Part shown: positions 1,891-36,448 of the stretch, in pieces
Position numbering within the stretch: position 1 is the stretch's first letter
Layout: every line of letters begins with the position of its first letter
Source: Defluviitaleaceae bacterium
Lineage (GTDB): Bacteria > Bacillota > Clostridia > Lachnospirales > WQUN01
Direction of reading: 5' to 3'
Length of the DNA: 36,448 bases
NCBI GenBank assembly: GCA_009786975.1
Contig: WRGX01000216.1
Span: 1-36,448 of the forward strand
Made by a program: the position numbers and the translations under genes
The notes under the pieces: model-generated
The model's database searches: none
What the model was told of the DNA's origin: nothing
Seen by the model: the letters and a program-made list of their open reading frames with translations, nothing else

Positions 1891-1934
1891 AAAAATTGCA
1901 TCGTCCGGTTATATCGGACGATGCAATTTTTTTT
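1891..1934 (+). terminator. Intrinsic terminator of the spore-protein gene
   Basis: A perfect 12-bp stem, TTGCATCGTCCG paired with CGGACGATGCAA around a 7-nt loop, is followed by eight T. An A run precedes it, so it could also act on the other strand. It lies 10 nt after the stop codon. Confidence 0.9.
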
Positions 1935-2063
1935 GTGGACCGGGAAACTGCTTCCGGCTTCGAGAGAATGCGTCGCCGCCGACACGTGTCCCCGGTGGCG
2001 CGGGAAACGTTCGCTTCGCTCACTGCGCCCGTAGTGCCCACCGCGCGCTTGGCGCGCTTTTTT
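1935..2063 (+). repeat. Family A element with optional module M
   Basis: The order on the plus strand is CCGGGAAACTGCTTCCGG hairpin, TTCGAGAGAA, GACACGTGTCCCCGG, module M (1997-2036, core AACGTTCGCTTCGCTCACTG), then GCGCGCTTGGCGCGC (2043-2057) and six T. It lies between the spore-protein terminator and the 3' end of the minus-strand regulator at 2073. The T-tailed hairpin reads as a terminator for plus-strand transcription. Confidence 0.85.
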
Positions 2064-2788: not shown

Positions 2789-3083
2789 GCGCGCTTGGCG
2801 CGCTTTTTTTGTACGCCGGGAAACTACTCCCGGCTTCGAGGGAATGTGTCGCCCTTGACACATGTCCCCGGTTTCCAAAGCGCGCTTGGCGCGCTTTTTT
2901 TGTACGCCGGGAAACTGCTCCCGGCTTCGAGGGAATGTGTCGCCCTTGACACATGTCCCCGGTTTCCAATGCGCGCTTGGCGCGCTTTTTTTGTGCGCCG
3001 GGAAACTGCTCCCGGCTTCGAGGGAATGTGTCGCCCTTGACACATGTCCCCGGTTTCCAAAGCGCGCTTGGCGCGCTTTTTTT
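2789..3083 (+). repeat. Tandem array of family A elements (three 91-bp periods, four terminal hairpins)
   Basis: GCGCGCTTGGCGCGC starts at 2789, 2880, 2971 and 3062, an exact 91-bp period, each followed by seven T. Between them lie the GCCGGGA/TCCCGGC hairpin, TTCGAGGGAA, the TGTGTC/GACACA hairpin and CCCCGGTTTCCAA. Units differ at only a few bases, so duplication is recent. Frames are open through the array on both strands, but the repeat itself explains them. This and the following palindrome fill the gap between 2786 and 3229; nothing else is seen except the promoter at 3179. Confidence 0.95.
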
Positions 3084-3090
3084 GTGTGCG

Positions 3091-3133
3091 CAAAAAAGAG
3101 TCGGCGAGTGACACTCGCCGACTCTTTTTTTTT
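3091..3133. terminator. Family B palindrome, copy 1 (bidirectional terminator-like)
   Basis: GAGTCGGCGAGTG paired with CACTCGCCGACTC (3098-3124) is a perfect palindrome around one A. It is flanked by six A on the left and nine T on the right, so it can terminate both strands. Confidence 0.85.
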
Positions 3134-3178
3134 GCGAGGAAAATGAAAATAAAAAAACGCTTAAAACTCGTTTTTTTA

Positions 3179-3228: not shown

Positions 3229-4584
3229 GTGCGTAGGTTTCTTACAGCGGTTGTATTTTTTTTGCTTTTTTGGGGAAGTCTTGATGTTTTTGCCCAGCCC
3301 CTTGCGGACTCCCCTTCGGCGATTCTCGTTGAGCAAACGACGGGTCGCGTGCTTTACGCGCGAAACGAGCGGGAACGCCGCTACCCCGCGGGCTTGACGA
3401 ACATGCTTACCGCGCTTGTGGCAATCGAACATCTCGCGCCGGGCGATGATTTAATCGTCGGCTCGGAAATCCGCGGGATGCCGTCGGGCTTTGGCGCGGG
3501 CGTGCATTCCGAGGGTGAAATTATTTCGGTGCAAACGCTGTTAAATTCGCTGTTGGTGCGTTCGTCGGGCGAGGCGGCGCGGGTTTTGGCGATTAATACG
3601 GTGCGCCAAGCCGGAGGCCGCAGAAATATCCCTTATAATGAAGCGGAACATGCTTTCGCCGCCATGATGAACGAAAAAGCGCGCGGGCTTGGTGCGCAGG
3701 GTTCGAATTTTGCAAACCCCTTCGGTTCGCACGCCGATAATCACTTCACAACGGCGTACGATTTGGCGGTTATCACGCGCGCATTTATGGACAACCCGAT
3801 TTTGGCAGAAATCGCAGGCACTCGCGAATACGAAACGCAGCACGAAACTTGGACAAACGCAAACCAAATGCTCCCCCGCGCACCCATGGGCTATGCGTAT
3901 ATGACGGGCGCAATGGCGGGGTTTACGACGCCTGCCGGGCATGTTCTCGCAGGCGCGGCATACGACACGCATCTCTCTCTCGGGTTTGTTACAATCGTGC
4001 TTGGCGGAACCGACGCGGAACGCTGGCAGGACACGCGCCGCCTTATGGACCACGGGTTTAACAATTTCCGCTTTCGCGAAATCGCCCGCGAGGGCGAAGT
4101 GCTTGAAACCGTTTTAATCGAAAATCCGCGCTTGGGCGATTCCGAAATGCTTGAAATAATCGCGACAGCGTCATATACCGCGCTTTTAAGCCGCTTCGAG
4201 TACGACGAGCTTGCGCGGGTAATCACGTTTGACCCGATGTTATATGAACGACATGAATATGAAGAACCAATCGTCCTTCGCGCGCCGATTGAATACGGCG
4301 AGGCGGTCGGCACGGTTTCATATATATTGAACGGCGAGGTGTTGTTTGAGTCGGCGATTTTGCCGTCACGCGAGGTAATTCCGCGCACTTTTGACAGCGA
4401 TATGGACTATTATCTCGCCATCTTTTTCGAAAATGTTTTTACGAGACGCGCACTGCCGTACTGGTTCGGGATTTTCGGCGTGGCGTTCGGGATTTTCGGC
4501 ATTGTTCTGGCGGTTAAGGCACATAGCCGCGTAAGCCGAAAAGCCGTGCGCACCTCAAGCCGAAGCAAATACGGTCGTTATTAA
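3229..4584 (+). CDS. D-alanyl-D-alanine carboxypeptidase-like protein (S11 fold), catalytic residues lost
   Basis: About 451 residues: signal peptide (RRFLTAVVFFLLFWGSLDVFA), S11/DacF-like penicillin-binding domain, beta-rich C-terminal domain and a final transmembrane helix with a basic tail (YWFGIFGVAFGIFGIVLAV). The family fold is clear from ILVEQTTGRVLYARNERERR and NPFGSHADNHFTTAYDLAVI. The three active-site motifs are degenerate, numbering from the TTG at 3226. SxxK is replaced by GLTN (56-59), SGN by SGE (114-116), and KTG by MTG (226-228). It should therefore not have carboxypeptidase activity; a structural or binding role is inferred. GTG 3229 is chosen because AAGGCGG lies 8 nt upstream; TTG 3226 is possible. 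First gene of the operon. Confidence 0.8.
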   Translation: MRRFLTAVVFFLLFWGSLDVFAQPLADSPSAILVEQTTGRVLYARNERERRYPAGLTNMLTALVAIEHLAPGDDLIVGSEIRGMPSGFGAGVHSEGEIISVQTLLNSLLVRSSGEAARVLAINTVRQAGGRRNIPYNEAEHAFAAMMNEKARGLGAQGSNFANPFGSHADNHFTTAYDLAVITRAFMDNPILAEIAGTREYETQHETWTNANQMLPRAPMGYAYMTGAMAGFTTPAGHVLAGAAYDTHLSLGFVTIVLGGTDAERWQDTRRLMDHGFNNFRFREIAREGEVLETVLIENPRLGDSEMLEIIATASYTALLSRFEYDELARVITFDPMLYERHEYEEPIVLRAPIEYGEAVGTVSYILNGEVLFESAILPSREVIPRTFDSDMDYYLAIFFENVFTRRALPYWFGIFGVAFGIFGIVLAVKAHSRVSRKAVRTSSRSKYGRY

Positions 4585-4594
4585 AATAAGGGGG

Positions 4595-4678
4595 GATTAA
4601 GCATGAAAAATCTAAGAAAGGAACGCGGGCGACCCATTTTAAATGGCGATTTATACGCTCGGCGAATGGCGAAAAAAT
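4595..4678 (+). repeat. Family D leader repeat, copy 1
   Basis: The copy holds its own ribosome-binding site and start (GGGGGATTAAGCATG), then AAAAAT, AAAGGAACGCGGGCGA, a variable centre and CGGCGAATGGCGAAAAA. Related copies lie before ogg (18880-18962) and, in tandem, before the GH5 gene (21340-21488). Confidence 0.7.
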
Positions 4679-6620: not shown

Positions 6621-7115
6621 ATGCTTACACCGTCCTATTCGCAACTTATGGAGACAATCCAAGAGGGTGAAAAACTCGACAGCCGCGTCACAAGCCGCTA
6701 CACCGTTGTTCTTGCGGCGGCAAAGCGCGCGCGGCAAATAACCGATGGCGCGAATCCGCTAACCTACGCACCGACGGACCGCGCCGTTTCTATTGCCGTA
6801 AAAGAAATGAGCGAAGGCAAACTTCGCATAAAAATTCAGGACAGCCTCTTGGATGAAGACTACATCCGCCTGAAAAAAGACCCCTTCCGCTACCGCACAG
6901 CAGTCTCCAAGGACGATTTGCGCGAAGATTTGAAAGAGGACTACATGCCCATTTCGTACGATATGGACGCAGACGACGACCGCGGCGAAATTTTCCCGAC
7001 GGAGGAATCGGAAGAAACCGCGCCCGTCGCAAAAGACGTGGACGATTTGGATATATACGAAGATACAGGCGATGACGCGGACGATGATACCGATATTGCA
7101 GATGTTGCCGAGTAA
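6621..7115 (+). CDS. rpoZ: RNA polymerase omega subunit with long acidic tail
   Basis: The first 70 or so residues match omega: LTPSYSQLMETI, then SRYTVVLAAAKRARQI and KAVSIAVKEMSEGKL-like sequence. Omega helps assemble and stabilise RNA polymerase by holding the beta-prime tail. The protein is 164 residues, about twice the usual length. The rest is a very acidic Asp/Glu-rich tail (for example DDADDDTDIADVAE) of unknown role. GAAAGGAG lies 11 nt before the ATG. The 3' end overlaps the priA start. The genomic position between gmk and priA supports the call strongly. Confidence 0.88.
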   Translation: MLTPSYSQLMETIQEGEKLDSRVTSRYTVVLAAAKRARQITDGANPLTYAPTDRAVSIAVKEMSEGKLRIKIQDSLLDEDYIRLKKDPFRYRTAVSKDDLREDLKEDYMPISYDMDADDDRGEIFPTEESEETAPVAKDVDDLDIYEDTGDDADDDTDIADVAE

Positions 7116-9384
7116 TTTTGCACTTATTTGCGTTGATATTTTGCACGGCGATGTTGACCGTTTATTTTTTTACAAAATTCCGGCGGGGCTTGAAATTTCC
7201 GTCGGTCAACGCGTGCGCGTGCCGTTTGGGTTGGGCGATTCGATTAAAATCGGCTATGTAATGGAAGTTACACAAACGCCGACGGATGATATCGCGCCGG
7301 AAAAAGTCAAAGAAATACACAGTCGGCTCGACGATTTTCCCGTTCTTACGCTGGAAACAATCGAGCTTGCGTTTTGGATGCAAAAAAAATATTACACAAC
7401 GCTTGCGGCGTGTGTACGCGCGATTGTTCCCGGCTCGAAAAGCGACGGGAAATTTCCTGTCGCGCGGAAAAAGCCGAAATTTTCGGAAATTACGCCGGTC
7501 GACATCACTTTGACCGACGAGCAAGAACACGCCGTTTCGCAAATTCTTCAAGCCGTTTCGGTTTCGGCTTCGGCTTCGGTTCCGCCTGACGGAGAACGCG
7601 GGACTGCCGACACAGATTCACGCTGTTTGACCTTTTCCTCGTCTGAAAAAGTATCAGAGCGCGCTCGACGCGCTATTTTACTGCATGGAGTAACGGGCAG
7701 CGGAAAAACCGAAGTTTACTTACACGCAATCGAAAAAATTTTGGCCGAGGGGCGGCAGGCAATCGTTCTTGTTCCCGAAATCGCGCTTACGCCGCAAATG
7801 GTCGCGCTTTTTTCCGCGCGATTCGGCAGTGCCGTCGCCGTAACGCACAGCCGCCTCACCCAAGCCGAACGCTTTCAAATTTGGAAAATGGCACTATCCT
7901 CCGAAATTTCGCTTGTAATCGGGCCGCGTTCCGCCGTTTTCGCGCCGTTTCCGCGCCTCGGACTCATCGTTATCGACGAGGAACACGAACATACCTACCA
8001 TTCCGAAACCGCCCCAAAATACGACGCCCGCGAAGTCGCCTTAAAACGCGCGGAAATTTGCGACGCCGCCGTTGTTTTGGGTTCGGCCACGCCAAGTCTT
8101 GAAAGCTATTTTAAGGCGCGGGAAAAATTGATGATGTTGGTGCCACTAACCGCAAGGATTAATAAAACCTTGCCGGAAATCCATATCGTTGACATGCGAA
8201 ACGAGATGCGGCGGGGGAATGCGTCGATTTTTTCGCAAAGTTTTTCGGACGCGCTTGCGGAAACTTTGGCGGCGGGTCGGCAGGCGATTTTATTTTTGAA
8301 TCGGAGGGGGCATTCGTCGTTTGTTAGCTGTCGGTGGTGCGGGCATGTTATGGGGTGCGAAAGTTGCAGGGTTAATCATACATATCATGCGGACAAAGGG
8401 CGGCTTTTGTGCCATTATTGCGGCAAGGGGACGGCGATGCCCGCGCGGTGTCCGATTTGCGAGTCCGAGCATATAAAGAAGTATGGGACGGGGACGCAGA
8501 AGGTCGAGGCGGAAATCACCGAGCTTTTCCCCGACGTGAAAGTCCTGCGCATGGACATGGACACCACGCGCGGCAAGCATGGTCACGCGAAAATTTTGGA
8601 CGCGTTTCGCGCGGGCGAGGCGCAGATTTTAATCGGCACACAAATGGTCGCTAAGGGGCTGGATTTTCCGAACGTTACGCTCGTTGGCGTAATCGCGGCG
8701 GATATGTCGCTTCATACCGGCGATTTTCGCGCAGGAGAGCATACGTTTCAAATTTTAACGCAGGTGGCGGGACGCGCGGGACGGCGCGCCAAGCGCGAAA
8801 TGGACGCCACGGGCGCAGTGAGCGAAGCGAACGTTTCCCGCGCCGCCAAGGGCGCAGTGAGTTCCCGCGCTACCGAGGACTCATGTGTGCAGTCCGGGCA
8901 TTCTATCGAAGCCGGAAGTGAAGCCGGAAGCCATGAAAAAAGATACCAAGGAAAAGTCTTCATCCAAACTTTTAATCCCGAGCATTACGCAATCGCCCTC
9001 GCCGAAAAAGGCGATTACGAAAAATTTTTTGCACATGAAATCGCGTTGCGCGAGGCTATGATTTATCCGCCGTTTTCGCATGTTTTTTCGGTAATGCTTA
9101 CCGGGACGCAGGAGCGCGAGGTTGTCGCGGCGTTGCAAACGCTTGCCGCAATTATGGAATATGTTGCAAAGCGCGACGGGAAGGAACGTTTTGAATTAAT
9201 GGGGCTTTCACCCGCTTTTGTTTCGATGATAAAGAAACAATTCCGTTGGAAACTTCTTGTAAAATCGCGCGAGGAAGCCACGCTCGTCGCATTTGTGTTA
9301 TATTGTATAAAAAAATTAAAGCAGAGCAATCCGCTTAAAAATATGACTTTGCACCTCACACTTAACCCTATAATGATGGAATAA
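7102..9384 (+). CDS. priA: Primosomal protein N' (replication restart helicase PriA), with repeat-derived insert
   Basis: Superfamily 2 helicase that reloads the replisome at stalled forks. About 760 residues: N-terminal 3'-DNA-binding domain (DVDRLFFYKIP, RVRVPFG), Walker A GVTGSGKTE (196-204), Walker B DEEHEHTYHSE, eight zinc-binding cysteines (CRWC, CESC, CHYC, CPIC, about 410-455), and MVAKGLDFPNV plus QVAGRAGR of the C-terminal RecA-like lobe. ATG 7102 fits the family start and overlaps rpoZ by 14 nt. Residues 562-615, right after GRAGR, are a family A plus module M insert. Native sequence resumes at QGKVFIQTFNPEHY. A second low-complexity insert lies before Walker A (7557-7672). Neighbouring helicase motifs are intact, so function is likely kept. 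Confidence 0.95.
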   Translation: MLPSNFALICVDILHGDVDRLFFYKIPAGLEISVGQRVRVPFGLGDSIKIGYVMEVTQTPTDDIAPEKVKEIHSRLDDFPVLTLETIELAFWMQKKYYTTLAACVRAIVPGSKSDGKFPVARKKPKFSEITPVDITLTDEQEHAVSQILQAVSVSASASVPPDGERGTADTDSRCLTFSSSEKVSERARRAILLHGVTGSGKTEVYLHAIEKILAEGRQAIVLVPEIALTPQMVALFSARFGSAVAVTHSRLTQAERFQIWKMALSSEISLVIGPRSAVFAPFPRLGLIVIDEEHEHTYHSETAPKYDAREVALKRAEICDAAVVLGSATPSLESYFKAREKLMMLVPLTARINKTLPEIHIVDMRNEMRRGNASIFSQSFSDALAETLAAGRQAILFLNRRGHSSFVSCRWCGHVMGCESCRVNHTYHADKGRLLCHYCGKGTAMPARCPICESEHIKKYGTGTQKVEAEITELFPDVKVLRMDMDTTRGKHGHAKILDAFRAGEAQILIGTQMVAKGLDFPNVTLVGVIAADMSLHTGDFRAGEHTFQILTQVAGRAGRRAKREMDATGAVSEANVSRAAKGAVSSRATEDSCVQSGHSIEAGSEAGSHEKRYQGKVFIQTFNPEHYAIALAEKGDYEKFFAHEIALREAMIYPPFSHVFSVMLTGTQEREVVAALQTLAAIMEYVAKRDGKERFELMGLSPAFVSMIKKQFRWKLLVKSREEATLVAFVLYCIKKLKQSNPLKNMTLHLTLNPIMME
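7557..7672 (+). repeat. Low-complexity insert in priA with a possible decayed family A element
   Basis: About 38 extra residues separate LTDEQEHAVSQILQAVS from LLHGVTGSGKT. The DNA begins with TTCGGCTTCGGCTTCGG repeats and ends with GCGCGCTCGACGCGC, close to the family A hairpin GCGCGCTTGGCGCGC. The middle shares only short words with the consensus, such as GCCGACACA. Insert status is likely; assignment to family A is tentative. Confidence 0.45.
8784..8940 (-). repeat. Family A element with duplicated module M, inside priA
   Basis: On the plus strand the order is GCGCGCCAAGCGCG, GGACGCCACGG, module M (8811-8844), a shortened second M (8850-8871), GACTCATGTGTGCAGTCCGG, TCTATCGAAGCCGGAAG and a repeat of GAAGCCGGAAG. 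The insert is about 162 bp, a multiple of three, and is translated within PriA. The orientation places the T tract before the hairpin in the priA message, so it should not terminate. Confidence 0.85.
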
Positions 9385-11130: not shown

Positions 11131-11247
11131 CAAGTGACGCACTGCACCGGGTACACATGTCGGTGGCGACGCGTTCCCGCGAAGCCGGAAGAAGTTTACT
11201 CGCCCATAAAAATCGAGTCGGCGAGTGTCACTCGCCGACTCGATTTT
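11131..11247 (-). repeat. Decayed family A element joined to family B palindrome, copy 2
   Basis: CACCGGGTACACATGTCGG, GACGCGTTCCCGCGAAGCCGG and GTTTACTCGCCCATAAAAA follow the family A order with substitutions. The initial hairpin (CAAGTGACGCACTG) is largely lost. The family B palindrome GAGTCGGCGAGTG/CACTCGCCGACTC lies at 11215-11241 within AAAATC...GATTTT and may end fmt transcripts. I see nothing between 11058 and 11130. Confidence 0.75.
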
Positions 11248-11269
11248 GAAAAAAAATTTTTTTAAAAAA

Positions 11270-11353
11270 GCGCGCCAAGCGCGCATTGGGCACCGGGGGC
11301 ATATGTCGCGGGCGACGCATTCCCTCGAAGCCGGGAGCAATTTCCTTGCCCAT
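11270..11353 (-). repeat. Family A element downstream of the PBP gene
   Basis: GCGCGCCAAGCGCGC, TTGGGCACCGGGGG, CATATGTCG, GCGACGCATTCCCTCGAAGC, CGGGAGCAATTTCC. On the minus strand the hairpin is followed by six T, so it reads as a terminator behind the PBP gene. Confidence 0.88.
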
Positions 11354-11380
11354 AAAAAAAACGCGCATACGCGCGTTTTT
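11354..11380 (-). terminator. Intrinsic terminator of the PBP gene
   Basis: ACGCGC/GCGCGT stem around a 4-nt loop, followed on the minus strand by eight T. It lies about 20 nt after the stop codon at 11395. Confidence 0.8.
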
Positions 11381-14579: not shown

Positions 14580-14762
14580 AAAAAATCGAGTCGGCGAGTG
14601 ACACTCGCCGACTCGATTTTTTTTGCGCAGTTTTATGGCAAAAAAAGCGCGCACTGCGCGCACCACGGGCGCAGTGCGCGAAGCGAACGTTTCCTGCGCC
14701 ACTGTAGACAAGTGCCGGAGGCGACACATTCCCTCGAAGCCGGGAACAGTTGCCCGGCGTAT
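14580..14762 (-). repeat. Composite repeat: family B copy 3, linker, family A with module M
   Basis: The family B palindrome lies at 14588-14614 with A and T tracts. The linker GCGCAGTTTTATGGCA follows and also joins B to A at 19205-19235. The A element (14647-14762) starts GCGCGCACTGCGCGC, then module M (GGGCGCAGTGCGCGAAGCGA), AAGTGCCGGAGGCGACACAT, CCCTCGAAGCCGGGAACAGT. On the minus strand the hairpin precedes a T tract, ending transcripts from the gene at 15024. Confidence 0.88.
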
Positions 14763-14801
14763 AAAAAAATGATGATGTTAGTGCCACTAACATCATCATT
14801 T
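14763..14801 (-). terminator. Perfect hairpin, terminator-like (family E)
   Basis: AAATGATGATGTTAGTG pairs with CACTAACATCATCATTT around one base. On the minus strand it runs into eight T. It probably terminates transcripts from the DUF6514-like gene. Confidence 0.75.
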
Positions 14802-15023: not shown

Positions 15024-15449
15024 TTAGCGGCTGTCCATCCAGTCGTCCGCCATTTCAAGAAGCGTAATCGGCGTAACAGTTCCCGCCGCGAACGCGCGAG
15101 CCATAGCAAAAATCACGTCGCGGTCGTCGGTTATGCCGTGCGTTTCTTCGCTTTCTTGAGGGTCAGGAAACTGCTCCCGGCTTCGAGGGAATGCGTCGCC
15201 GCCGACACATGTTCCCGGTGTCCAATGCGCGCCTGGCGCGCTTTCTTGAGGCATCCCGTCGGGCGCGCGGGATGCGTTGGCTTCGCTCGCGTCCGACGGG
15301 GTGCGTTTTTCGACGCGCAGGGCGTAGTATTCATCCCCGTCGTCGTTTAAGTAAGTTTGTACGATGTAGCTTAAAATCCACGTTTCTCCGGTTTCGGTGC
15401 TGATTTTTTCGTTCGAAACCATCTCATTTTTTTGCGCATTCGCAACCAT
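15024..15449 (-). CDS. DUF6514-like protein carrying a repeat-derived insert
   Basis: A 141-residue protein. Residues 15-48 (ETGETWILSYIVQTYLNDD, YYALRVEK) and 101-140 (THGITDDRDVIFAMARAF, AAGTVTPITLLEMADDWM) match my recollection of the short clostridial DUF6514 family of about 95 residues and unknown function. Between them lie about 51 residues from module M and a family A element (SEANASRAPDG, SAPGAHWTPGTCVGGDAFPR). AAAAGGGGA lies 8 nt before the ATG. It is downstream of recN on the same strand. The family call is from memory and moderately sure; the insert is seen directly. Confidence 0.65.
   Translation of the reverse strand: MVANAQKNEMVSNEKISTETGETWILSYIVQTYLNDDGDEYYALRVEKRTPSDASEANASRAPDGMPQESAPGAHWTPGTCVGGDAFPRSREQFPDPQESEETHGITDDRDVIFAMARAFAAGTVTPITLLEMADDWMDSR
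15163..15304 (+). repeat. Family A element plus module M variant inside the DUF6514-like gene
   Basis: CAGGAAACTGCTCCCGGC, TTCGAGGGAATGCG, GCCGACACATGTTCCCGG and GCGCGCCTGGCGCGC (15227-15241) match the consensus closely. The module M variant (GCGCGGGATGCGTTGGCTTC) lies at 15252-15304, bounded by CCCGTCGG and CCGACGGG. It is in frame and in the non-terminating orientation relative to the gene. Confidence 0.88.
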
Positions 15450-15566: not shown

Positions 15567-17303
15567 TCAAATTTTTTTCAGAGCGTCGGCTTGGCTTTTC
15601 ATCTCGCTTGCGGATTGGAGCGTTGCCGATGTAATGGCGGCGCCGCCTGTTAATCGGGCGAGTTCGCGGATTGTACCGTCGGTGCAAAGGGGGGCAACGC
15701 TTGTGATTGTGCGGCCCGTTCGCTCGGCTTTTTCGATTAGGAAGTGCGTGTCCGCCATTGCAGCGATTTGTGGCAAATGTGTGATACATAAAATTTGTCG
15801 CGTGCGTGAAACCGCCGCCAGTTTTTCTGCTACTTGTTGCGCCGTTCTGCCCGACACGCCTGTGTCAACCTCGTCGAAAATTACGGTGGGCACGCGGTCC
15901 GACATTATCGTTTTTATAGCGAGCATGATGCGCGACATTTCGCCGCCGCTGGCGATTTTTCGCAGGGGTTTGGCGGGTTCGCCCGGGTTCGGCGAAATCA
16001 TAAACTCGATTTCGTCGTTGCCGTCAGCCGCGAACACGGTTTTTTGCTTGATTTGAATAAAAAGCTCCGCGTGTTGCATTCCGAGGTCGCGTAAAATTTC
16101 GGTGATTTCGGCGGAAAGTCGGGCGGCGTGGGCGGTGCGAATCGCGTTCATTGTTGCGCAAACCGCTGTTATTTCCGCGGAAATTTCCTTGCGACGCGCG
16201 CGGATTTTTCGCGCTTCGACTTCGGCGTTCTCAACGCTGTCCAGCTTTTGCGCCAAATCGTCTCGCTTCATTAGAATAGTCTCGACCGTTGCGCCGTATT
16301 TTTTTTTCAGCCTGTAAATCGTGTCGAGGCGCGTTTCCATTGCGTCGAGGGCGTGCGGGTCGGCGTCGAGTTCGCCTTCATAATCGCGAAAATCTCGCCC
16401 GATTTCGCGGATTACTGCGTTTACGTCAACCAAAGCGGTATGTAAATGTTCCTTCGACGGGTCAATCCGCGCGATTTCCGCGGCAAGCGCGACTGCTTTC
16501 GCGGTGGCGTCGGCGGCGGGCATACTCGGGCGTCCCTCAAAAAACCCCGCATAAAGCAGGGCCACAATGTCCGACGTGTTCCGACTCAAACGCTCGAGCC
16601 CCGCAAGCCTGTCCCGCTTTGCCGTAAGCGCGTCCTCTTCTCCCGGCTTCAGCGCGGCGGCTTCGATTTCGTTTAGCTGGAACCGCCAAATTTCAAGCTG
16701 TTCCGCGCTTGTTCCCGCTTCGATTTTTTTAAGCTCGCGCGTGGCCTCTTTATAGCGCGACAAATGTCCCGCGAGGGCGGTTTTCATCTCCGCCAGTTCA
16801 TCTCCGCAGAAATAATCCAGCATTTCAAGCTGTTTCGCCGGGTCGAGAAGGCTTTGATGCTCGTGTTGGCCGTGCAATTCAACAAGCAACTCCGCCGCGC
16901 TTTTTAACACGCCGACGGTAACGGTGCGGCCATTTATACGGCAAGTTGACTTGCCTGTGTCAGCCTGCATCGCGCGCGAAAGCATGAGTTGCCCGCCGTC
17001 GAGTTCTATCCCCAACGCAATAAGCCCCTGTTTTAAAGCAGCGGAAGCAGAATCCGGCTTCGAGAGCACGCGAGGCACCCGACACATGTTATCGGTGTCA
17101 AAAATACCTTCGACGCTGGCGGAGGGTGCGCCTGTGCGGATTAGGTCGCGGGAGGTTCGTCCGCCGAGCAAAAAATTTATGGAGTCAACAACAATGGATT
17201 TTCCCGCGCCGGTTTCGCCCGAAAGCACGTTAAGCCCGGGCGCGAACGCTACTTCGACCTCGTCGATAAGCGCGACGTTTTTTATACGTAAATTCACTAT
17301 CAT
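15567..17303 (-). CDS. recN: DNA repair protein RecN, with repeat-derived insert
   Basis: SMC-like ATPase acting early in double-strand break repair. About 578 residues: N-terminal Walker A (GETGAGKSIVVDSINFLLGG, 29-48), LHGQHEHQSLLDP, coiled-coil centre, ABC signature LRKIASGGEMSRIMLAIK, Walker B VIFDEVDTGVSG and QILCITHLPQIAA. ATG 17303 overlaps the argR stop (ATGA). Residues about 69-89 (DTDNMCRVPRVLSKPDSASA) are a family A insert between SVEGIFD and GLIALGIELDGG, a loop region in the family. Motifs elsewhere are intact. Confidence 0.95.
   Translation of the reverse strand: MIVNLRIKNVALIDEVEVAFAPGLNVLSGETGAGKSIVVDSINFLLGGRTSRDLIRTGAPSASVEGIFDTDNMCRVPRVLSKPDSASAALKQGLIALGIELDGGQLMLSRAMQADTGKSTCRINGRTVTVGVLKSAAELLVELHGQHEHQSLLDPAKQLEMLDYFCGDELAEMKTALAGHLSRYKEATRELKKIEAGTSAEQLEIWRFQLNEIEAAALKPGEEDALTAKRDRLAGLERLSRNTSDIVALLYAGFFEGRPSMPAADATAKAVALAAEIARIDPSKEHLHTALVDVNAVIREIGRDFRDYEGELDADPHALDAMETRLDTIYRLKKKYGATVETILMKRDDLAQKLDSVENAEVEARKIRARRKEISAEITAVCATMNAIRTAHAARLSAEITEILRDLGMQHAELFIQIKQKTVFAADGNDEIEFMISPNPGEPAKPLRKIASGGEMSRIMLAIKTIMSDRVPTVIFDEVDTGVSGRTAQQVAEKLAAVSRTRQILCITHLPQIAAMADTHFLIEKAERTGRTITSVAPLCTDGTIRELARLTGGAAITSATLQSASEMKSQADALKKI
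17041..17100 (+). repeat. Decayed family A element inside recN
   Basis: AATCCGGCTTCGAGAGCACG, CCCGACACATGTTATCGGTG and TCAAAAA follow the consensus in order. The GCGCGC hairpin is lost. It is in frame and in the non-terminating orientation for recN. Confidence 0.75.
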
Positions 17304-17958: not shown

Positions 17959-18951
17959 TCATAATTGCCGAAACCCATTAGTGTCCCCATCCCCCGTGCG
18001 AATATAATGAAACAAAAACTGTTGCGCGATGCCGGAAAAATTTTTTATTTCCGGAGGGAAGCCCTTGGGGAACCAGCGCGACATTGCGCGGCGAATCCAA
18101 ACGTCGGCGGGATAGCGTTCGACGCGACCGAATCCGTAAAGCAAAACACATTCCGCAACCTTCGGCCCGACGCCGCGAATTTTTTGCAAAACTTCGCACA
18201 GCTCGTCGGATGAAAAATTTTCACACGCGTGCAAGTCGATTTCGCCGCTTGCCACGCGCCTCGCCGCGTCCAGTACATATCCCGCGCGATAGCCCAAGCG
18301 CAGGGGCGCAAGGTCGACTTCGCTCAACCCGGCAAGTTTTTCGGGCGTGGGAAAATCGAAATAGTGCATGGCTTCGAGAGAACGCTCCGCCACGTGTCCG
18401 CAGTTTCCACCGTGCGCTTGGCGCACCCCGAAATTTTCGCACAATGCCTCCACCATTTTTTTTATGCGCGGAATATTTGCGTTTTGGCTCAAAATAAACG
18501 AAACCAACGTTTCCCACGAATTTTGGCGCAAAAGCCGCAAACCCGGCGAAAATTCCACCGCATTTTTCAGATGCTCGCTGCACTCCGAAAAAAGCGCGCG
18601 TAAATTTCCGTAATCCCGCTCGATGTCAAAGTAATTTTTCCATATTTTTTCAAACTCATCCTCCGAAACATCATGCAAAATCACTTCGCCGTTTGCGCGC
18701 GAAATTTCCAGCCGCCGCCCCTGCGCAATGCCGACAAAGAGTTCTCGGTTTTGAGCGCACGCGTCGCCACTTGCCCCCGGTTTCCACAGTGCGCTTGGCG
18801 CACACCAGCGAAACGCCTGCCCACAGTCAAGCGTTTGCGCAAGGTCAAAATCGATGCCCTTTAATATGTAATTCACACTTTTCACCATTCGCTGAACGCA
18901 CAAATCGCCATTAAAAATCGGACGCCCGCGTTCCTCTTGTTCATTTTTCAC
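17959..18951 (-). CDS. ogg: 8-oxoguanine DNA glycosylase (Ogg1 family) with two repeat-derived inserts
   Basis: Excises oxidised guanine from DNA. About 330 residues. Visible: N-terminal LDCGQAFRW, FILSQNANIPRIKKMVEALCE, and the HhH-GPD core IRGVGPKVAECVLLYGFGRV with catalytic Lys and YPADVWIRR with catalytic Asp. GTG 18951 is preferred for AAGGGGTGAG upstream; it makes the family D leader the N-terminus. ATG 18888 (MVKSVNYILK) is the canonical-length alternative. Residues about 51-71 (CAPSALWKPGASGDACAQNR) and 175-195 (RQAHGGNCGHVAERSLEAMH) are family A copies, each between conserved blocks. The frame also runs upstream through intergenic repeats; that part is not gene. Confidence 0.88.
   Translation of the reverse strand: MKNEQEERGRPIFNGDLCVQRMVKSVNYILKGIDFDLAQTLDCGQAFRWCAPSALWKPGASGDACAQNRELFVGIAQGRRLEISRANGEVILHDVSEDEFEKIWKNYFDIERDYGNLRALFSECSEHLKNAVEFSPGLRLLRQNSWETLVSFILSQNANIPRIKKMVEALCENFGVRQAHGGNCGHVAERSLEAMHYFDFPTPEKLAGLSEVDLAPLRLGYRAGYVLDAARRVASGEIDLHACENFSSDELCEVLQKIRGVGPKVAECVLLYGFGRVERYPADVWIRRAMSRWFPKGFPPEIKNFSGIAQQFLFHYIRTGDGDTNGFRQL
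18367..18428 (+). repeat. Family A element inside ogg (distal insert)
   Basis: GGCTTCGAGAGAACGC, GCCACGTGTCCGCAGTTTCC and GTGCGCTTGGCGCAC follow the consensus. The terminal hairpin keeps its symmetry through compensating changes (GTGCGC/GCGCAC instead of GCGCGC/GCGCGC). Confidence 0.8.
18739..18802 (+). repeat. Family A element inside ogg (proximal insert)
   Basis: GTTCTCGGTTTTGAGCGCAC, GTCGCCACTTGCCCCCGG, TTTCCACA and GTGCGCTTGGCGCAC. It carries the same GTGCGC/GCGCAC variant hairpin as the distal ogg copy. In frame, non-terminating orientation. Confidence 0.78.
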
Positions 18952-18962
18952 ACTTCTCACCC
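18880..18962 (-). repeat. Family D leader repeat, copy 2
   Basis: On the minus strand AAGGGGTGAGAAGTGTGAAA, GAGGAACGCGGGCG, TTTTTAATGGCGATTTGTGC and GTTCAGCGAATGGTGAAAA. Here the leader frame stays open into ogg, so it is probably translated as the Ogg N-terminus. Confidence 0.7.
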
Positions 18963-18988
18963 CTTGCATTTTATCACAAACAGCAAGA

Positions 18989-19170
18989 AAAAAAGCGCGC
19001 CAAGCGCGCAGTGGACACCGGGGAAATATGTCTGCGGCGACGCGTTCCCTCGAAGCCGGAAGCAGTTTCCCGGCGTATGAAAAAGCGCGCCAAGCGCGCA
19101 GTGGACACCGGGGAAATATGTCTGCGGCGACGCGTTCCCTCGAAGCCGGAAGCAGTTTCCCGGCGTATGA
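18989..19170 (-). repeat. Two tandem family A elements (90-bp period)
   Basis: GCGCGCCAAGCGCGC starts at 18995 and again at 19085. The two 90-bp units are identical from there to the end (GAAGCAGTTTCCCGGCGTATG-type ending). On the minus strand the hairpins precede T tracts. With 19171-19361 this accounts for the whole gap between ogg and the GH5 gene. Confidence 0.92.
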
Positions 19171-19319
19171 AAAAATCGAGTCGGCGAGTGTCACTCGCCG
19201 ACTCGATTTTTTTGGCGCAGCTTTATGGCAAAAAAGCGCGCCAAGCGCGCAGTGGACATCGGGGACACGTGTCGGCGGCGGCGCGTTCCCTCGAAGCCGG
19301 GAGCAGTTTCCCGGCGTAG
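19171..19319 (-). repeat. Composite repeat: family B copy 4, linker, family A
   Basis: The family B palindrome is at 19178-19204 with A and T tracts, then GGCGCAGCTTTATGGCA as linker, then a full A element from GCGCGCCAAGCGCGC (19236) through GTGGACATCGGGGACACGTG and CCTCGAAGCCGGGAGCAG. The composite matches 14580-14762. Confidence 0.9.
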
Positions 19320-19321
19320 TG

Positions 19322-19361
19322 CAAAAACAGGGCGTGTTCCCTACATGGGAACACGCCCTGT
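19322..19361 (-). terminator. Intrinsic terminator of the GH5 gene
   Basis: A perfect 15-bp stem, ACAGGGCGTGTTCCC with GGGAACACGCCCTGT around TACAT, runs into TTTTT on the minus strand. It lies 25 nt past the stop codon and would end the whole transport operon. Confidence 0.88.
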
Positions 19362-19386: not shown

Positions 19387-21339
19387 CTACGGCGCAACCA
19401 AATCAAACGTAACTTCAATAGAGTGAATCCGCACCCCCGCATAATTCGCAAGCAACCGCGGGTTTGCGTTCGCATCTTCATCTTGGAAAACGCGCGCTCC
19501 CGCAGGAATGCCCGCAACCCAGCCATTGTACAAATTCACACGGGTTGTATTTCCGTCGTCGCTTGTCGTGAATGGAACGCCGATTTGCTCGGCTTCGTTG
19601 CCGTTTACCAAAATGGATGTGATGTTTACATAATATCCCGGAAACAGCGACTCGCCGTTGAAAATCCCAAGCGCGGAGAAGGTAATTCCATTCGCGCCGC
19701 CACCGGGTACGCCTCCGAAGTTCAGTCCAACGGTGTAAGTCCCTTCGCCCGTAATTTCAACGTCGGCAGCGACAACGCCGCTTGTTATGCTTTCCGGCCG
19801 ATAATCGTCGCCAACGCTGTATTGCACCGACCAATCCGTGCTTGTGAACATAATCCACGCAACCGCCATGTCGTCGGGAATTATCGTAACGGGGCGATTA
19901 CGCGCCATTTCCATCGTATTTTCCATGCTTTCGCGCGCTGCCGCAATTATATCGGCGGTAGTCAGGCCTTCGCGGGCTTCGACGCTTCGGCTTTGGAAAA
20001 GCTCCAAAATATCCGGCTCGGTAAGGGTTCGCGTGAAACGCCTGTCGAACATTCCGCCGGCTCCCCTGTCCCATAAAATCGGCGAAAAACCGTGATAATC
20101 GCTTAAATCCAAGAAATTCGTAAAAAATTTCAGCCTGTCGGGCCCCTCGTTATCCAAGACGCCCCATTCGCCCAAAACTATGCCGTAACCCTGCTCGGTG
20201 AAAAAAGTCAAACGGCCCAGCAAATCATTCATTTCCTCGACTTCCGTTACTGTCCCCCAGTGGTCCACGCCGGAAACGTCGCCCGTAAAACTCCACGGGG
20301 TGTAGTAATGAACGCTTAGTAAAATTCGGCCGCGCGGGTCTGTGGGCAGCTCAAAGCGCGGGTCCAGGGTCATCATAACGTCGGTGTTATAGCCCTTCAT
20401 CAGCAAAAAACGGTCGGGATTGTACCCGCCCTGCGAACGAATCAGGTCAACAAAAACTTGGGACAAATATGTGAGAAGCTGATAATTTTCCGTTACGGAG
20501 AAAATTCCGCCGGGACTGAAAGCGGTTGCGTCGTTAAAACGACTGCCCCATTCCTCGTTGGACGGCTCCAAAATAAGGCGCATGTCGTAATCGGCAAAAT
20601 GCTCGCCGATTTGCGTCCACATCGCAACGAACATTTCATGCGCAAAATCTCGCCGTTCCTCCTCGGGATGCCCGAACATGCTCCACCATCCGTGGTCCCA
20701 ATGCGCGTTAATAATAACGAACATGTCCTCGTTCAAAGCGTAATTTACGATTTGTTCAACGCGCTCGAGGTAGTCGATGCCTATTGTAAGGTCGCCGTTT
20801 TCGAAGTCCATCGCGTTTGTCCACGCAACGGGAATTCGCAGGGTGTTAAAGCCCGCGTCGCGCATTCCCGTAATCATTTCCTGCGTCGTAACGGGGTTGC
20901 CCCACATTGTTTCGTAAACGGAAGTGTGTTGATTCGGCACACGATTCGCGGAATTCACCGCTTCCATCGTATTGCCCAAATTTATTCCGTTGCCCAAAAG
21001 CCGCGCCATCTCAAGAGATGTTACATACGCGAGACTTTCGCAAGGCGGCGGCTGAACCCGCTCGCTATCCTGCGTGCCGCCCGAATCGGCTGTCGGCGTC
21101 GCGTCATTCGAAGCATTATTCGAAGCATTATTCGAAGCACCGGTCGCAACGCCATCCGCAACATCGGTCGCAACATCATTCGAAGCGTCATCCCCTGCGC
21201 CCTCCGGACTTTCCTCCGGCGCATCTTCAAAAACGGGCGAGGCCGGGTACTCATACCCGGCCTCATCCGTCCCGCCGCAAGCGGCAAAAAACAACATCCC
21301 CACAGCGGCAAAAATTAAAATTTCAAAATATTTTCTCAT
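19387..21339 (-). CDS. Lipoprotein glycoside hydrolase family 5 (endoglucanase type) with C-terminal binding domain
   Basis: A 650-residue secreted enzyme. Lipoprotein signal with lipobox Cys21 (GMLFFAACGG), then an Asn/Ala/Asp-rich linker (about 35-95, NNASNNASND) and a GH5 catalytic barrel (about 105-480): NGINLGNTMEA, TLRIPVAW, INAHWDHGWW, acid/base Glu262 after Asn261 (PSNEEWG), HYYTPW and nucleophile Glu391 (GEWGV). The C-terminal 130 residues (TYTVGLNFGGVPGGGANGIT) form a beta-sandwich like that of carbohydrate-binding modules. GH5 enzymes of this type usually cut beta-1,4-glucan or related glycans; substrate is not settled by sequence. Last gene of the transport cluster, so it likely feeds the importers. 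Confidence 0.88.
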   Translation of the reverse strand: MRKYFEILIFAAVGMLFFAACGGTDEAGYEYPASPVFEDAPEESPEGAGDDASNDVATDVADGVATGASNNASNNASNDATPTADSGGTQDSERVQPPPCESLAYVTSLEMARLLGNGINLGNTMEAVNSANRVPNQHTSVYETMWGNPVTTQEMITGMRDAGFNTLRIPVAWTNAMDFENGDLTIGIDYLERVEQIVNYALNEDMFVIINAHWDHGWWSMFGHPEEERRDFAHEMFVAMWTQIGEHFADYDMRLILEPSNEEWGSRFNDATAFSPGGIFSVTENYQLLTYLSQVFVDLIRSQGGYNPDRFLLMKGYNTDVMMTLDPRFELPTDPRGRILLSVHYYTPWSFTGDVSGVDHWGTVTEVEEMNDLLGRLTFFTEQGYGIVLGEWGVLDNEGPDRLKFFTNFLDLSDYHGFSPILWDRGAGGMFDRRFTRTLTEPDILELFQSRSVEAREGLTTADIIAAARESMENTMEMARNRPVTIIPDDMAVAWIMFTSTDWSVQYSVGDDYRPESITSGVVAADVEITGEGTYTVGLNFGGVPGGGANGITFSALGIFNGESLFPGYYVNITSILVNGNEAEQIGVPFTTSDDGNTTRVNLYNGWVAGIPAGARVFQDEDANANPRLLANYAGVRIHSIEVTFDLVAP

Positions 21340-21488
21340 TTTTTCGTCATTCGCTGAACGTACAAATTTCTAATGGAATTCGTCGCCCGCGTTCCTTTTT
21401 TCGATTTTTAACCCTTTTTCGTCATTCGCTGAACGCACAAATTCCTGATGAAATTCGTCGCCCGCGTTCCTTTCGCCGATTTTTCACC
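21340..21488 (-). repeat. Two tandem family D leader repeats before the GH5 gene
   Basis: Units at about 21340-21414 and 21415-21488, 75-bp period. On the minus strand each has AAAAATC, AAAGGAACGCGGGCGACGAA, AATTTGT and CGTTCAGCGAATGACGAAAA. The upstream unit opens GTG AAA AAT as in the ogg copy; the downstream one has GTT. The leader frame ends TGA, and the GH5 ATG lies 7 nt after the second TGA. Confidence 0.82.
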
Positions 21489-21489
21489 C

Positions 21490-22470
21490 TTAGTCCTTTT
21501 TCTTCATCACGAAGAACACAATGCCACCAACAACCGCAAGTGCCACAACAATCAGGACAATTACGAGTACCGCGTTACCGCCGTCATCCGCTGCAGGAGC
21601 GGGAGCGGGTGTGGGCGCAGGGGTAGCGTCGGGGGTTTCATCGGGAGTTTCATCAACGACGTCTTCGGTGATGTCCTCGGTAATGGGAACAGGGTCAATT
21701 TGAACGGGTTCTTCTTCTGGTTCGTCAACATCTGCGGGTTCTTCAACGTCGTCGGGTTCTTCCCCGTTTTCATCCGCTTCCTCGCCGTTTTCATCTTCTT
21801 CCGGCTCGTCCTCGGGTTCATCTTCGGGTTCGTCCTCGGGTTCATCTTCGGGTTCGTCCTCGGGTTCATCTTCCGGCTCATCTTCGGGTTCGTCCGGCTC
21901 GGGCTCGGGCGCGGCGGCTCCGCCAAAGGGATTGGCTGCGCCGGCTTCCGTTATCGCCATACGTACTTCAATTCTGCCGAAAGACCCGATACCGCCGTCG
22001 GTCAAAGAACCATAAACCGGTCCCGCAAGCGGCATATCTTCTTCGGCCCAATAATTCGTAAGCGAAACGCGAATGCCGCCGTCGTAAGCGATACCTACGG
22101 CATCGGCATTAAAACTGACGGGGCTGCCGTCAATGGTAATGCTTTCAATAAACGCATCGTAATTTTCAACATAAGCCATGTTCGCCACGCGTATATCGGT
22201 TTGAATAACAAAGGCATAACCCCATCCCGCATGAACATGCGCCCAAGTCGAGCCGCCCGCGTCCAAAACAACGGTAAACGGTTCGCCCGTGGTGAAGGCT
22301 GTGCTTTGATTTTCATGCGTTTGCCACTCGGGAAAATAATACTCGGGATGCATCATTGTTCCGCCGAAAAAAGCGTTTCCGCCTTCTTCAACAACTGCAA
22401 AAGCAGGCACGGCAAGCATCGAGCCAAAAATGGTCAACGCGATCAAAACAGCAAAAATGTTCTTTTTCAT
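21490..22470 (-). CDS. Secreted surface protein with acidic repeat stalk and C-terminal membrane anchor
   Basis: About 326 residues. Signal peptide (MKKNIFAVLIALTIFGSMLA), a beta-rich N-terminal domain (about 25-185, with YAFVIQTDIRVAN and GGIRVSLTNYWAEED), then a long Glu/Pro/Asp stalk with about eight EPED units, a Thr/Pro/Ala stretch, one transmembrane helix (LVIVLIVVALAVVGGIVFFV) and KKKD. The domain is not recognised; its place between a binding protein and a GH5 glycanase suggests a glycan-binding surface protein. ATG 22470 is chosen for AAAGGTG 9 nt upstream. The stalk DNA is a 12- and 24-bp repeat at about 21797-21905. Confidence 0.75.
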   Translation of the reverse strand: MKKNIFAVLIALTIFGSMLAVPAFAVVEEGGNAFFGGTMMHPEYYFPEWQTHENQSTAFTTGEPFTVVLDAGGSTWAHVHAGWGYAFVIQTDIRVANMAYVENYDAFIESITIDGSPVSFNADAVGIAYDGGIRVSLTNYWAEEDMPLAGPVYGSLTDGGIGSFGRIEVRMAITEAGAANPFGGAAAPEPEPDEPEDEPEDEPEDEPEDEPEDEPEDEPEDEPEEDENGEEADENGEEPDDVEEPADVDEPEEEPVQIDPVPITEDITEDVVDETPDETPDATPAPTPAPAPAADDGGNAVLVIVLIVVALAVVGGIVFFVMKKKD

Positions 22471-30665: not shown

Positions 30666-30691
30666 GCCAATGCCCCTTTTTTTAGAAATTT

Positions 30692-30760
30692 GCATCCGGC
30701 TTCGAGAGAATGTGACGCATGTGACACATTCCCTCGGTACCCATCGCGCGCTTGGCGCGC
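30692..30760 (+). repeat. Family A element between two genes of the transport operon
   Basis: CATCCGGCTTCGAGAGAATG, GTGACACATTCCCTCGG and GCGCGCTTGGCGCGC (30746-30760). The last base of the hairpin is the first base of the reverse-complemented stop codon (30760-30762) of the permease gene. The centre has rearranged into a 12-bp stem, CGAGAGAATGTG with CACATTCCCTCG. It is oriented so as not to terminate the operon message. Confidence 0.85.
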
Positions 30761-31701
30761 TAGTCTTTCATTCCGGACGTTGTAAGCGTTTCAATCATTT
30801 GGCTTTGCGCGATTATGAAAAACGTAACGGGTATTATCATCATTAAGAACATTACGGCCGCGCTTTCACCGGCGCGGGCGATGCCGCCGCCCGCGATTTG
30901 ACCCATCGCGAAGGAAAGCGGTTTAAGCTCCTCGCTTCGTATAAATATGCCGCCGGTTGTCGCCCATAATCCTTGAAATTGCAGGATAATAAGCGTAAGC
31001 CACGCGGGCTTTACGTTCGGCATTACGATTGACCAATAAATTCTGTACTCCGACGCACCGTCGATTCGCGCGGATTCAACCAGCGAGTCGGGAATTTGCT
31101 CCATGAATTGCTTCATTAAATACAACCCAAGCGGCGCGGAAAACGCGGGCAAAATAATCGCCCAATACGTGTCAATCAGCCCCAGCGATGAAATTATTAT
31201 AAAGTTCGGAATCGACGTTACAACGGCGGCAAACATTAGGGAAAGCACCACCATTGAAAACATCATTTTTCTGCCGGGCAATTCCACTTTAGCAAGCGCG
31301 TACGCCGCCGAAGACGCAAACATTAAATGCCCAAGCGTTCCGCCCAAGGTAATTATAAGCGTATTAACGGCGTAACGCGAAAAAGGCACCCACGTCGCCT
31401 GCATCGATACGAACAAGTCCGAAAAATTGCTTAGGGTCGGATTTCGTACGACGATTTGCGGCGGGAAAAGGAACAGCTCATCCAGCGGTTTTAACGCGTT
31501 ACTTACTGTCAAAAACAGCGGGAAGCCCATGAATACGGCAAGGAGCCCCATGAAAATAAACAGCACAACGGTTCCGCCCGTTGAGCGGTTTAGCCGCTTC
31601 GTGCGCTTGGCAAGTTTGCCGATTTTTTTTCCATGCTCGTCATAAATATATTGCGGCTTGGGAAATTTTTTTCTGAAAGAAGTCTTTAATGCGGCAACCA
31701 T
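30760..31701 (-). CDS. Carbohydrate ABC transporter permease (CUT1, MalG-like), second system
   Basis: A 313-residue protein with six predicted helices (GTVVLFIFMGLLAVFMGFPL first) after a basic cytoplasmic start of about 40 residues, and the EAA loop VESARIDGASEYRIYWSIVM. It is separated by 1 nt from the MalF-like gene upstream. The C-terminus ends MIETLTTSGMKD, the usual family ending. The TAG stop touches the family A hairpin, so the insertion left the reading frame intact. Confidence 0.9.
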   Translation of the reverse strand: MVAALKTSFRKKFPKPQYIYDEHGKKIGKLAKRTKRLNRSTGGTVVLFIFMGLLAVFMGFPLFLTVSNALKPLDELFLFPPQIVVRNPTLSNFSDLFVSMQATWVPFSRYAVNTLIITLGGTLGHLMFASSAAYALAKVELPGRKMMFSMVVLSLMFAAVVTSIPNFIIISSLGLIDTYWAIILPAFSAPLGLYLMKQFMEQIPDSLVESARIDGASEYRIYWSIVMPNVKPAWLTLIILQFQGLWATTGGIFIRSEELKPLSFAMGQIAGGGIARAGESAAVMFLMMIIPVTFFIIAQSQMIETLTTSGMKD

Positions 31702-35680: not shown

Positions 35681-36448
35681 TCAATTTGCGGAACAATCCG
35701 AAACACCGCGCACAATCCGCGGCAGACCTGCGTAATCGCTTGAAATTTCTACATCGCTGAAGCCCTCGTCGCGCAGTAAATCCGCAACTTCGACCGGTCC
35801 GATTTCGAAAAACAACGCCCCGCCTTCGCGCAGGGCATTTTTTGCTTGGGGGATTAAACGGCGATAGAGGTCGAGTCCGTCGGGGCCGCCGTTTAGGGCG
35901 AGATGTGGCTCGTGGTCGCGGACGGAGGGGGATAGGGTTTGCATTTCGGCGGCGGTGATGTATGGCGGGTTTGAGATGATTATGTCGAATTTTTCGTCGG
36001 CGGAAGGCATGTTCGGCTTCGAAGGCATGTGTCTTTTTTGTGGGCCGGGAAATTGCTTCCGGCTTCGAGGGAATGTGCCGACTTCGACACATGTCCCCGG
36101 TGTCCAGTGCGCGCTTGGCGCGCTTTTTTGAAAAATGTTATCGCTTATGAGGTCGGATTCGATAAATTTCACGCGCGCGGAAAGCCCCAGTTTTTCCGCA
36201 TTTTTTTTCGCAAGCGCGAGGGCGTCGGGGGAAATGTCGGTTGCGGTGATTTCGGCGCGGTCGCCCAAAACATGCGCAAGTGCGAGGGCGATACAGCCGC
36301 TTCCGGTGCAAACGTCGAGTATGCGCAGGGGTGTGTTTTTTTGTGCGTGAAAATCGAGTCGGCGAGTGTGACTCGCCGACTCGATTTTATTTTTGGCAGG
36401 GAAACTGCTTCCGGCTTCGAGGGAACGCGGCGATTCCGACACATGTCC
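35681..36448 (-). CDS. prmC: Peptide chain release factor N5-glutamine methyltransferase PrmC, C-terminal part, with repeat-derived inserts
   Basis: Methylates the GGQ glutamine of release factors using SAM. The methyltransferase core is clear: LRILDVCTGSGCIALALAHV (SAM motif I), ITATDISPDALALAKKNAEK, the catalytic NPPY in FDIIISNPPYI, then GPDGLDLYRRLIPQA. The N-terminal domain lies beyond the right edge. Two inserts interrupt the core: family A plus family B before motif I (SLEAGSSFPAKNKIESAS), and family A plus a partial copy between ESDLISDNIF and EKFDIIISNPPY (about 40 residues, KSAPSAHWTPGTCVEVGTFP). Both are in frame. Catalytic motifs are intact, so activity is plausible. The frame is open to the window edge. 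Confidence 0.9.
   Translation of the reverse strand, partial: GHVSESPRSLEAGSSFPAKNKIESASHTRRLDFHAQKNTPLRILDVCTGSGCIALALAHVLGDRAEITATDISPDALALAKKNAEKLGLSARVKFIESDLISDNIFQKSAPSAHWTPGTCVEVGTFPRSRKQFPGPQKRHMPSKPNMPSADEKFDIIISNPPYITAAEMQTLSPSVRDHEPHLALNGGPDGLDLYRRLIPQAKNALREGGALFFEIGPVEVADLLRDEGFSDVEISSDYAGLPRIVRGVSDCSAN
36001..36127 (+). repeat. Family A element plus partial second copy inside prmC
   Basis: A short partial (GGCTTCGAAGGCATGTGTC, near 36014) is followed by a full copy: GGGCCGGGAAATTGCTTCCG, CTTCGAGGGAATGTGCCGAC, ACACATGTCCCCGGTGTCCA and GCGCGCTTGGCGCGC (36109-36123). In frame, non-terminating orientation for prmC. Confidence 0.9.
36350..36448 (+). repeat. Family B copy 5 and family A element inside prmC (cut by window edge)
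   Basis: The family B palindrome is at 36356-36382, with a central change (GTGTGAC instead of GTGTCAC) and a shortened T tract. The A element follows from 36393 (GGGAAACTGCTTCCGGCTTC, GACACATGTCC) to the edge. The 39-bp B unit is 13 codons, translated KIESASHTRRLDF. Confidence 0.85.

Follow-up and report, generated by a model that had tools for sequence, protein, structure and literature searches.

The ogg gene of this Defluviitaleaceae genome contains two copies of a dispersed repeat, here called family A, and both carry the same uncommon hairpin. The question is whether this reflects selection on the hairpin or a common origin of the two copies. A preliminary description of the locus had taken them as independent inserts and had left both answers standing. 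The window, i.e., the whole stretch of 36,448 nt that was analysed, is contig C216 of a 2.2-Mb genome in 219 contigs (G000). The nearest named record to this genome is the MAG Defluviitaleaceae bacterium Emb289P1bin119 (G003), whose isolate name suggests a termite-gut habitat for the host. In the species tree, G009 groups with G000 (support 93/95); this closest relative has an ogg about 76% identical to that of G000. The genomes compared are incomplete MAGs, with contig ends falling in repeats. Family A was profiled in 405 kb of G000, a sample of the 2.2 Mb, in which genes were called with a custom script.

The host gene (17959-18888, minus strand; Pfam OGG_N and HhH-GPD) encodes an 8-oxoguanine DNA glycosylase of 309 aa. 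Copy 1 (18358-18427, minus strand; nhmmer E 1e-13, model positions 6-81) is translated in frame 0 as residues about 155-176, and copy 2 (18728-18804, minus strand; nhmmer E 2e-14, model positions 6-88) in frame 1 as residues about 29-50, giving the peptides VRQAHGGNCGHVAERSLEA and CAPSALWKPGASGDACAQNREL, respectively. In place of the GCGCGC-CAA-GCGCGC of the family, both show GTGCGC-CAA-GCGCAC on the minus strand, at 18412-18426 in copy 1 and 18789-18803 in copy 2. On the plus strand, GTGCGCTTGGCGCAC is found exactly at these positions, and the ogg coding strand reads its complement, GTGCGCCAAGCGCAC. Each stem is paired at 6/6 positions, with -8.1 kcal/mol. The shared variant, its retained pairing and the use of two reading frames are thus as first described; the inserts are where they were originally placed, although the hairpin of copy 2 runs to 18803, one base beyond the end given (18802). 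With up to three mismatches, GTGCGCTTGGCGCAC has 20 matches in the window, against 2.4 expected from shuffles.

The protein appears to tolerate both segments. In a 41-sequence alignment, K243 and D262 are invariant; they correspond to the lysine and aspartate that act in catalysis in this family. An AlphaFold2 model built on the same alignment shows an intact OGG fold (mean pLDDT 88.4, pTM 0.88), and the nearest solved structures are 4ejy and 3f0z. Low pLDDT is restricted to the two inserts (at residues about 31-50 and 160-175) and to the C-terminal residues, so that the two family A segments are the only internal loops predicted with low confidence.

The homologues of ogg in relatives come from Clostridia MAGs, Oscillospiraceae and Ruminococcus MAGs among them. 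Copy 1 takes the place of an EKLPCGE loop found in relatives. The ogg of G009 lacks either insert and has ordinary short loops instead, as do nearly all other relatives. The insertions are not clean relative to G009, some loop codons having been swapped out, and no target-site duplication was seen in this comparison. The exception is G003, which has a family A insert of its own in the loop of copy 1 and an unrelated stretch at the position of copy 2; neither G009 nor G003 has family A at the latter position. The G003 insert consists of two tandem copies with the hairpin GCGCGT-CAA-ACGCGC, in which a different base pair is changed. Because G009 groups with G000 yet has an empty, outgroup-like loop, this loop was probably entered twice, in G000 and in G003; the alternative is one old insertion followed by loss in G009.

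Family A is a dispersed repeat of ~90 bp, with a consensus close to AAAAAAGCGCGCCAAGCGCGCAGTGGRCACCGGGGACATGTGTCGGCGGCGACGCGTTCCCTCGAAGCCGGGAGCAGTTTCCCGGCNNATAAAAAA and the layout AAAAAA-GCGCGC-CAA-GCGCGC ... CTCGAAGCCGG ... CATAAAAAA. Its T-strand ends in GCGCGCTTGGCGCGCTTTTTT, a hairpin resembling an intrinsic terminator. Folding of the consensus gives a local hairpin together with a branched structure (A-strand z -3.6), and the consensus has no terminal inverted repeats. Tandem arrays in head-to-tail order, with a period of 90-91, are common among the copies. In the 405 kb of G000, 140 copies were found at E<1e-3, which extrapolates to about 760 genome-wide (estimate 700-800); at least 199 were found directly in the genome. 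G003 and G009 have more than 100 copies each, as lower bounds, and the signal is weak in G002 and G005. Among the 38 genomes of the family searched, a single genus was positive, and family A was not detected in the others. No matching Rfam family and no match in phage and plasmid collections were identified; one viral contig matched an 18-nt core, which looks like chance, as the contig has 63% GC and the rest of the element is missing. No reverse transcriptase (PF00078) was detected in the incomplete G000 and G003 genomes, and no publication describing repeats of this kind from Clostridia or from bacteria of the termite gut was found.

Within the window, three copies with canonical hairpins, terminator-like on the minus strand, lie just upstream of ogg on the plus strand (18989-19084, 19080-19174 and 19230-19324); two of them form a perfect 90-bp tandem. 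Another array of three copies, with a period of 91, is found at 2805-3081 on the minus strand, where the plus strand is the terminator-like T-strand. Further copies are located at 1929-2062 (minus strand, with an additional hairpin module), 11141-11212 and 11265-11359 (plus strand, both intergenic), 14673-14768 (plus strand, with the 5' module GTGCGCGAAGCGAAC) and 30684-30761 (minus strand, between co-directional genes). In some copies (8807-8844, 14663-14700), a short module, GTGAGCGAAGCGAACGTTTCCCGCGCC, is found in place of the family A hairpin or ahead of it; this module also occurs within genes of G000 and G003.

Other repeats share these intervals. Another palindrome, GAGTCGGCGAGTG..CACTCGCCGACTC, which is perfect and has A- and T-runs on its flanks, occurs 45 times in the 405 kb of G000, in the window at 3090-3155, 11207-11272, 14580-14645, 19170-19235 and 36348-36413. 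It lies within 60 nt of 33 of the 93 intergenic family A copies. The samples of G003, G009 and G002 yielded no copy of it, and the palindrome TCGGTGCGGGTAG..CTACCCGCACCGA of G009 looks like its counterpart. A third repeat of about 75 bp is seen at or near gene starts, including that of ogg (18879-18977, 21331-21480 and 4577-4675), its core TGTGCGTTCAGCGAATG being on the minus strand in the first two intervals. A 12-bp tandem repeat, TCGTCCTCGGGT/TCATCTTCGGGT, lies within a predicted gene at 21710-21901.

The presence of family A in coding sequences is not limited to ogg and extends to many genes of an essential type. In the window, a full-length copy lies within a DUF6514 gene (15024-15449; copy at 15152-15246, minus strand), a partial copy within recN, after the Walker A region (15567-17303; copy at 17033-17102, minus strand), a decayed copy within priA (7084-9384; copy at 8844-8918, plus strand) and another within a predicted methyltransferase ORF (36034-36128, minus strand). 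In the 405 kb of G000, 39 of the 140 copies are inside coding sequences, the host genes including those for RecG, pyrimidine nucleoside phosphorylase, an RlmD/RumA-like protein, PurH, MurJ, RecN, PriA, an ABC transporter and a radical SAM protein. For ogg, recG, purH, recN and rumA, the family A segments are extra, corresponding to gaps in the orthologues; RumA contains six copies in two blocks, both of which are gaps in four relatives. This RlmD/RumA-like gene (G000:C215:26951-28921) encodes 656 aa, compared with the usual 450-530 or so, and is apparently still open. In G003, recG and purH have further long in-frame inserts besides family A-like copies.

The in-gene copies are strongly oriented. 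In G000, 34 are A-coding and five T-coding (p 2.4e-6), and counting by host gene gives 23:5 (p 0.0009). When G000 and G003 are taken together, the A:T ratio is 30:2 for hairpin-bearing copies and 26:14 for hairpin-less ones (Fisher p 0.004); many T-coding copies of G003 are tandem units in two genes, so that the copies counted here are not all independent. Hairpin and T-tract together are absent from every T-coding in-gene copy of the two genomes. The A/T-tract has been lost in most in-gene copies; few of them would therefore terminate transcription today in either orientation. The 34 A-coding copies of G000 use all three frames (16/7/11), which agrees with the original suggestion that the peptide is not what is conserved.

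Outside genes, co-directional gaps show the same lean (25:10), which fits selection against terminators and also any transcription-linked insertion bias. The terminator-like end of family A is enriched in convergent gaps and, in co-directional gaps, is mostly directed against the flanking genes. Two other sources of the orientation were considered. Gene strand predicts it and GC skew does not, which speaks against a replication-strand bias, although the skew is weak. Stop codons do not account for it, since the T-strand frames are open as well, as judged from the consensus. The simplest reading of the bias would be that copies which ended transcription prematurely were selected against when they inserted.

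Does the hairpin itself behave as a conserved structure? Between genomes, the stem differs: it is GCACGC/GCGTGC almost throughout in G009 and GCGGC/GCCGC with a different loop in G002, while G005 keeps GCGCGC with another loop and G003 has several variants. The strongest single case is the GCGCGT/ACGCGC stem of the two G003 copies in the ogg loop that in G000 contains copy 1. For 31 distinct hairpins, 93.5% of the cells are paired vs. 88.6% after shuffling, changes on both sides of the stem number eight vs. 1.3, and the covariation is 0.219 vs. 0.115, with all three values above those of every one of the 500 shuffles; the list of variants was compiled by hand, and the shuffles ignore relatedness. 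The covariation across copies, proposed as a check in the preliminary description, is present on these terms, and the comparison favours a hairpin kept as a structure at the level of the family, with the proviso that template switching can mimic such a signal.

Template-switch repair is known to act on short palindromes, and the paired changes may be mutational, with quasi-palindrome template switching or gene conversion among copies restoring the symmetry of the hairpin. This course of events is possible, though rather unlikely. It would account for the single variant found in both tandem ogg copies of G003, and rare bases are about as frequent in the hairpins of in-gene copies (6.9%) as in the body of the repeat (8.1%), with no clear excess of conservation in the former. 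The orientation bias of hairpin-bearing copies, on the contrary, suggests an effect on phenotype, but such an effect does not require selection for pairing.

For the ogg pair in particular, a second alternative is that the inserts arose independently, each with its own paired C-G to T-A change, and so directly demonstrate that the hairpin is selected. We consider this unlikely. Copy 1 (segment 18376-18408) and copy 2 (segment 18753-18785), both on the minus strand, lack the identical six nucleotides, model positions 42-47. This deletion is present in two of the 165 family A copies with data, both in ogg, and a degenerate pattern for it, allowing up to three mismatches, matched only these two copies genome-wide. 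Both also combine the rare GTGCGC hairpin with an uncommon GTGGAAAC motif. As the deletion is unique to them, the copies are probably not independent, contrary to the preliminary description; one probably seeded the other. Outside the hairpin they are identical at just 31 of 42 positions, so their split is not recent, a divergence that independent origins would also explain.

The GTGCGC variant is rare in the genome: there are nine exact copies in the 2.2 Mb, seven of them inside genes, while the canonical hairpin is found in 107 of the 177 aligned family A copies. A phylogeny of the copies had been proposed earlier as the check on sisterhood; without the hairpin columns, the tree (75 columns for 166 rows) is too short to resolve the matter (AU p 0.44 for a pairing of the two ogg copies and 0.30 for a grouping of the nine GTGCGC copies). 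Parsimony on this tree counts nine changes to GTGCGC for nine copies and, with no GTGCGC clade resolved, would agree with independent origins. Against them, the AU test is compatible with one GTGCGC clade, the majority of these copies have TCTCTCGAAGCC in common, as a single subfamily would, and GTGCGC hairpins are present in G003 too, so that the variant may be ancestral. GTGCGC thus seems to be an older subfamily of family A. If the ogg copies form one lineage, as is probable, their paired change counts once, and a hairpin shared by likely siblings does not suffice to prove selection. Of the two explanations first offered, seeding is the better supported for the ogg pair; selection on the hairpin also finds support, from the covariation across species instead.

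Taken together, family A is probably a dispersed, non-autonomous and selfish repeat that stands mostly on its A-strand in genes, has its hairpin maintained as a structure and is represented in ogg by sister copies. Its dispersal, the in-frame insertions at sites that are empty in orthologues, the orientation bias, the covariation between species and the ogg-specific deletion were observed directly; mobility, terminator activity and selection as the source of the bias are inferred from them. Such a repeat would copy itself into intergenic gaps and protein loops and be translated in whichever frame results. Insertion of the T-strand into a gene would cut the transcript at the predicted terminator, leaving A-strand copies to survive as coding strand. 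If the copying machinery or an RNA requires the hairpin, stem bases would change pairwise between species. The ogg copies would derive from the older GTGCGC subfamily, either by one seeding the other or from a common source with the deletion. A terminator-like end on one strand predicts that orientation decides which insertions survive. The species-specific paired changes and the apparent repeated entry of the repeat into one ogg loop in two species would provide a natural experiment on the origin of new protein segments.

A bolder version is decidedly speculative: an undescribed active mobile element, bounded by its own terminator and moved via a transcript or single-stranded hairpin, would re-enter loops and reshape housekeeping proteins. 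The loops re-entered in sister species would include that of copy 1 in ogg and perhaps those of recG and purH.

Among known repeats, REPs are small palindromes that cluster downstream of genes and in part lie within genes for replication and repair (PMC3733652). Family A likewise combines palindromes and clusters with in-gene copies in genes of this kind, but it is very unlikely to be a REP family with a GTAG or CGTC tag that depends on a REP-associated tyrosine transposase for its movement. The corresponding Y1 transposase (PF01797) was not detected in G000, G003 and G009, all incomplete; no GTAG tag adjoins the hairpin, the flanks being AAAAAA and NNTGG; and the copies form head-to-tail tandems with a period of 90, not head-head dimers. 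In G009 copies CGTC stands before TCGAAGCCGG and in G002 copies before TCGAAGCCGT; G000 (CCCTCGAAGCC) does not have it there, and it adjoins no stem. Unlike in REP/RAYT systems, the unit is also longer. A role of the inserts as peptide modules with a function, maintained by selection on their sequence, is hardly credible: frame 0 is somewhat commoner (16/34) and an RQA(R/H)...SLEA peptide recurs, but all three frames are in use, the repeat enters proteins with no relation to one another, the segments in ogg lie in low-confidence loops, and the closest relative, G009, lacks both.

Correia/NEMIS, ERIC (RU-1), RU-2 and other bacterial MITEs, sometimes fused in-frame to genes, are roughly 100-170 bp in length (PMC2229807). 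Family A is non-autonomous like these, but, unlike most MITEs, has no terminal inverted repeats in its consensus and no target duplication at the ogg sites compared with G009. Its T-strand end, where a GC stem of 6 bp closes a 3-nt loop and at least five T follow, has the form of an intrinsic (Rho-independent) terminator, with the difference that the hairpin is part of a longer repeat. A close parallel is provided by the Rickettsia palindromic elements (RPE-1 to RPE-7) and their Wolbachia equivalents, which are found between genes and in-frame in intact housekeeping genes, and which related species often have at orthologous loci (PMC3767692, PMC2229807). Like these, family A is short, palindromic and in-frame in genes with empty orthologous sites. 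In contrast to the RPEs, which belong to the Rickettsiales, it resides in Clostridia, has neither 12-bp terminal inverted repeats nor an element-wide hairpin, forms ~90-bp head-to-tail tandems, ends like a terminator on one strand, shows a biased in-gene orientation and is translated in all three frames of one strand. Judged by these features, family A is probably distinct from the RPEs, with a terminator-like end of its own. If the explanation proposed here is true, in-frame palindromic repeats, best known from Rickettsia and Wolbachia, extend to gut Clostridia at high copy number.
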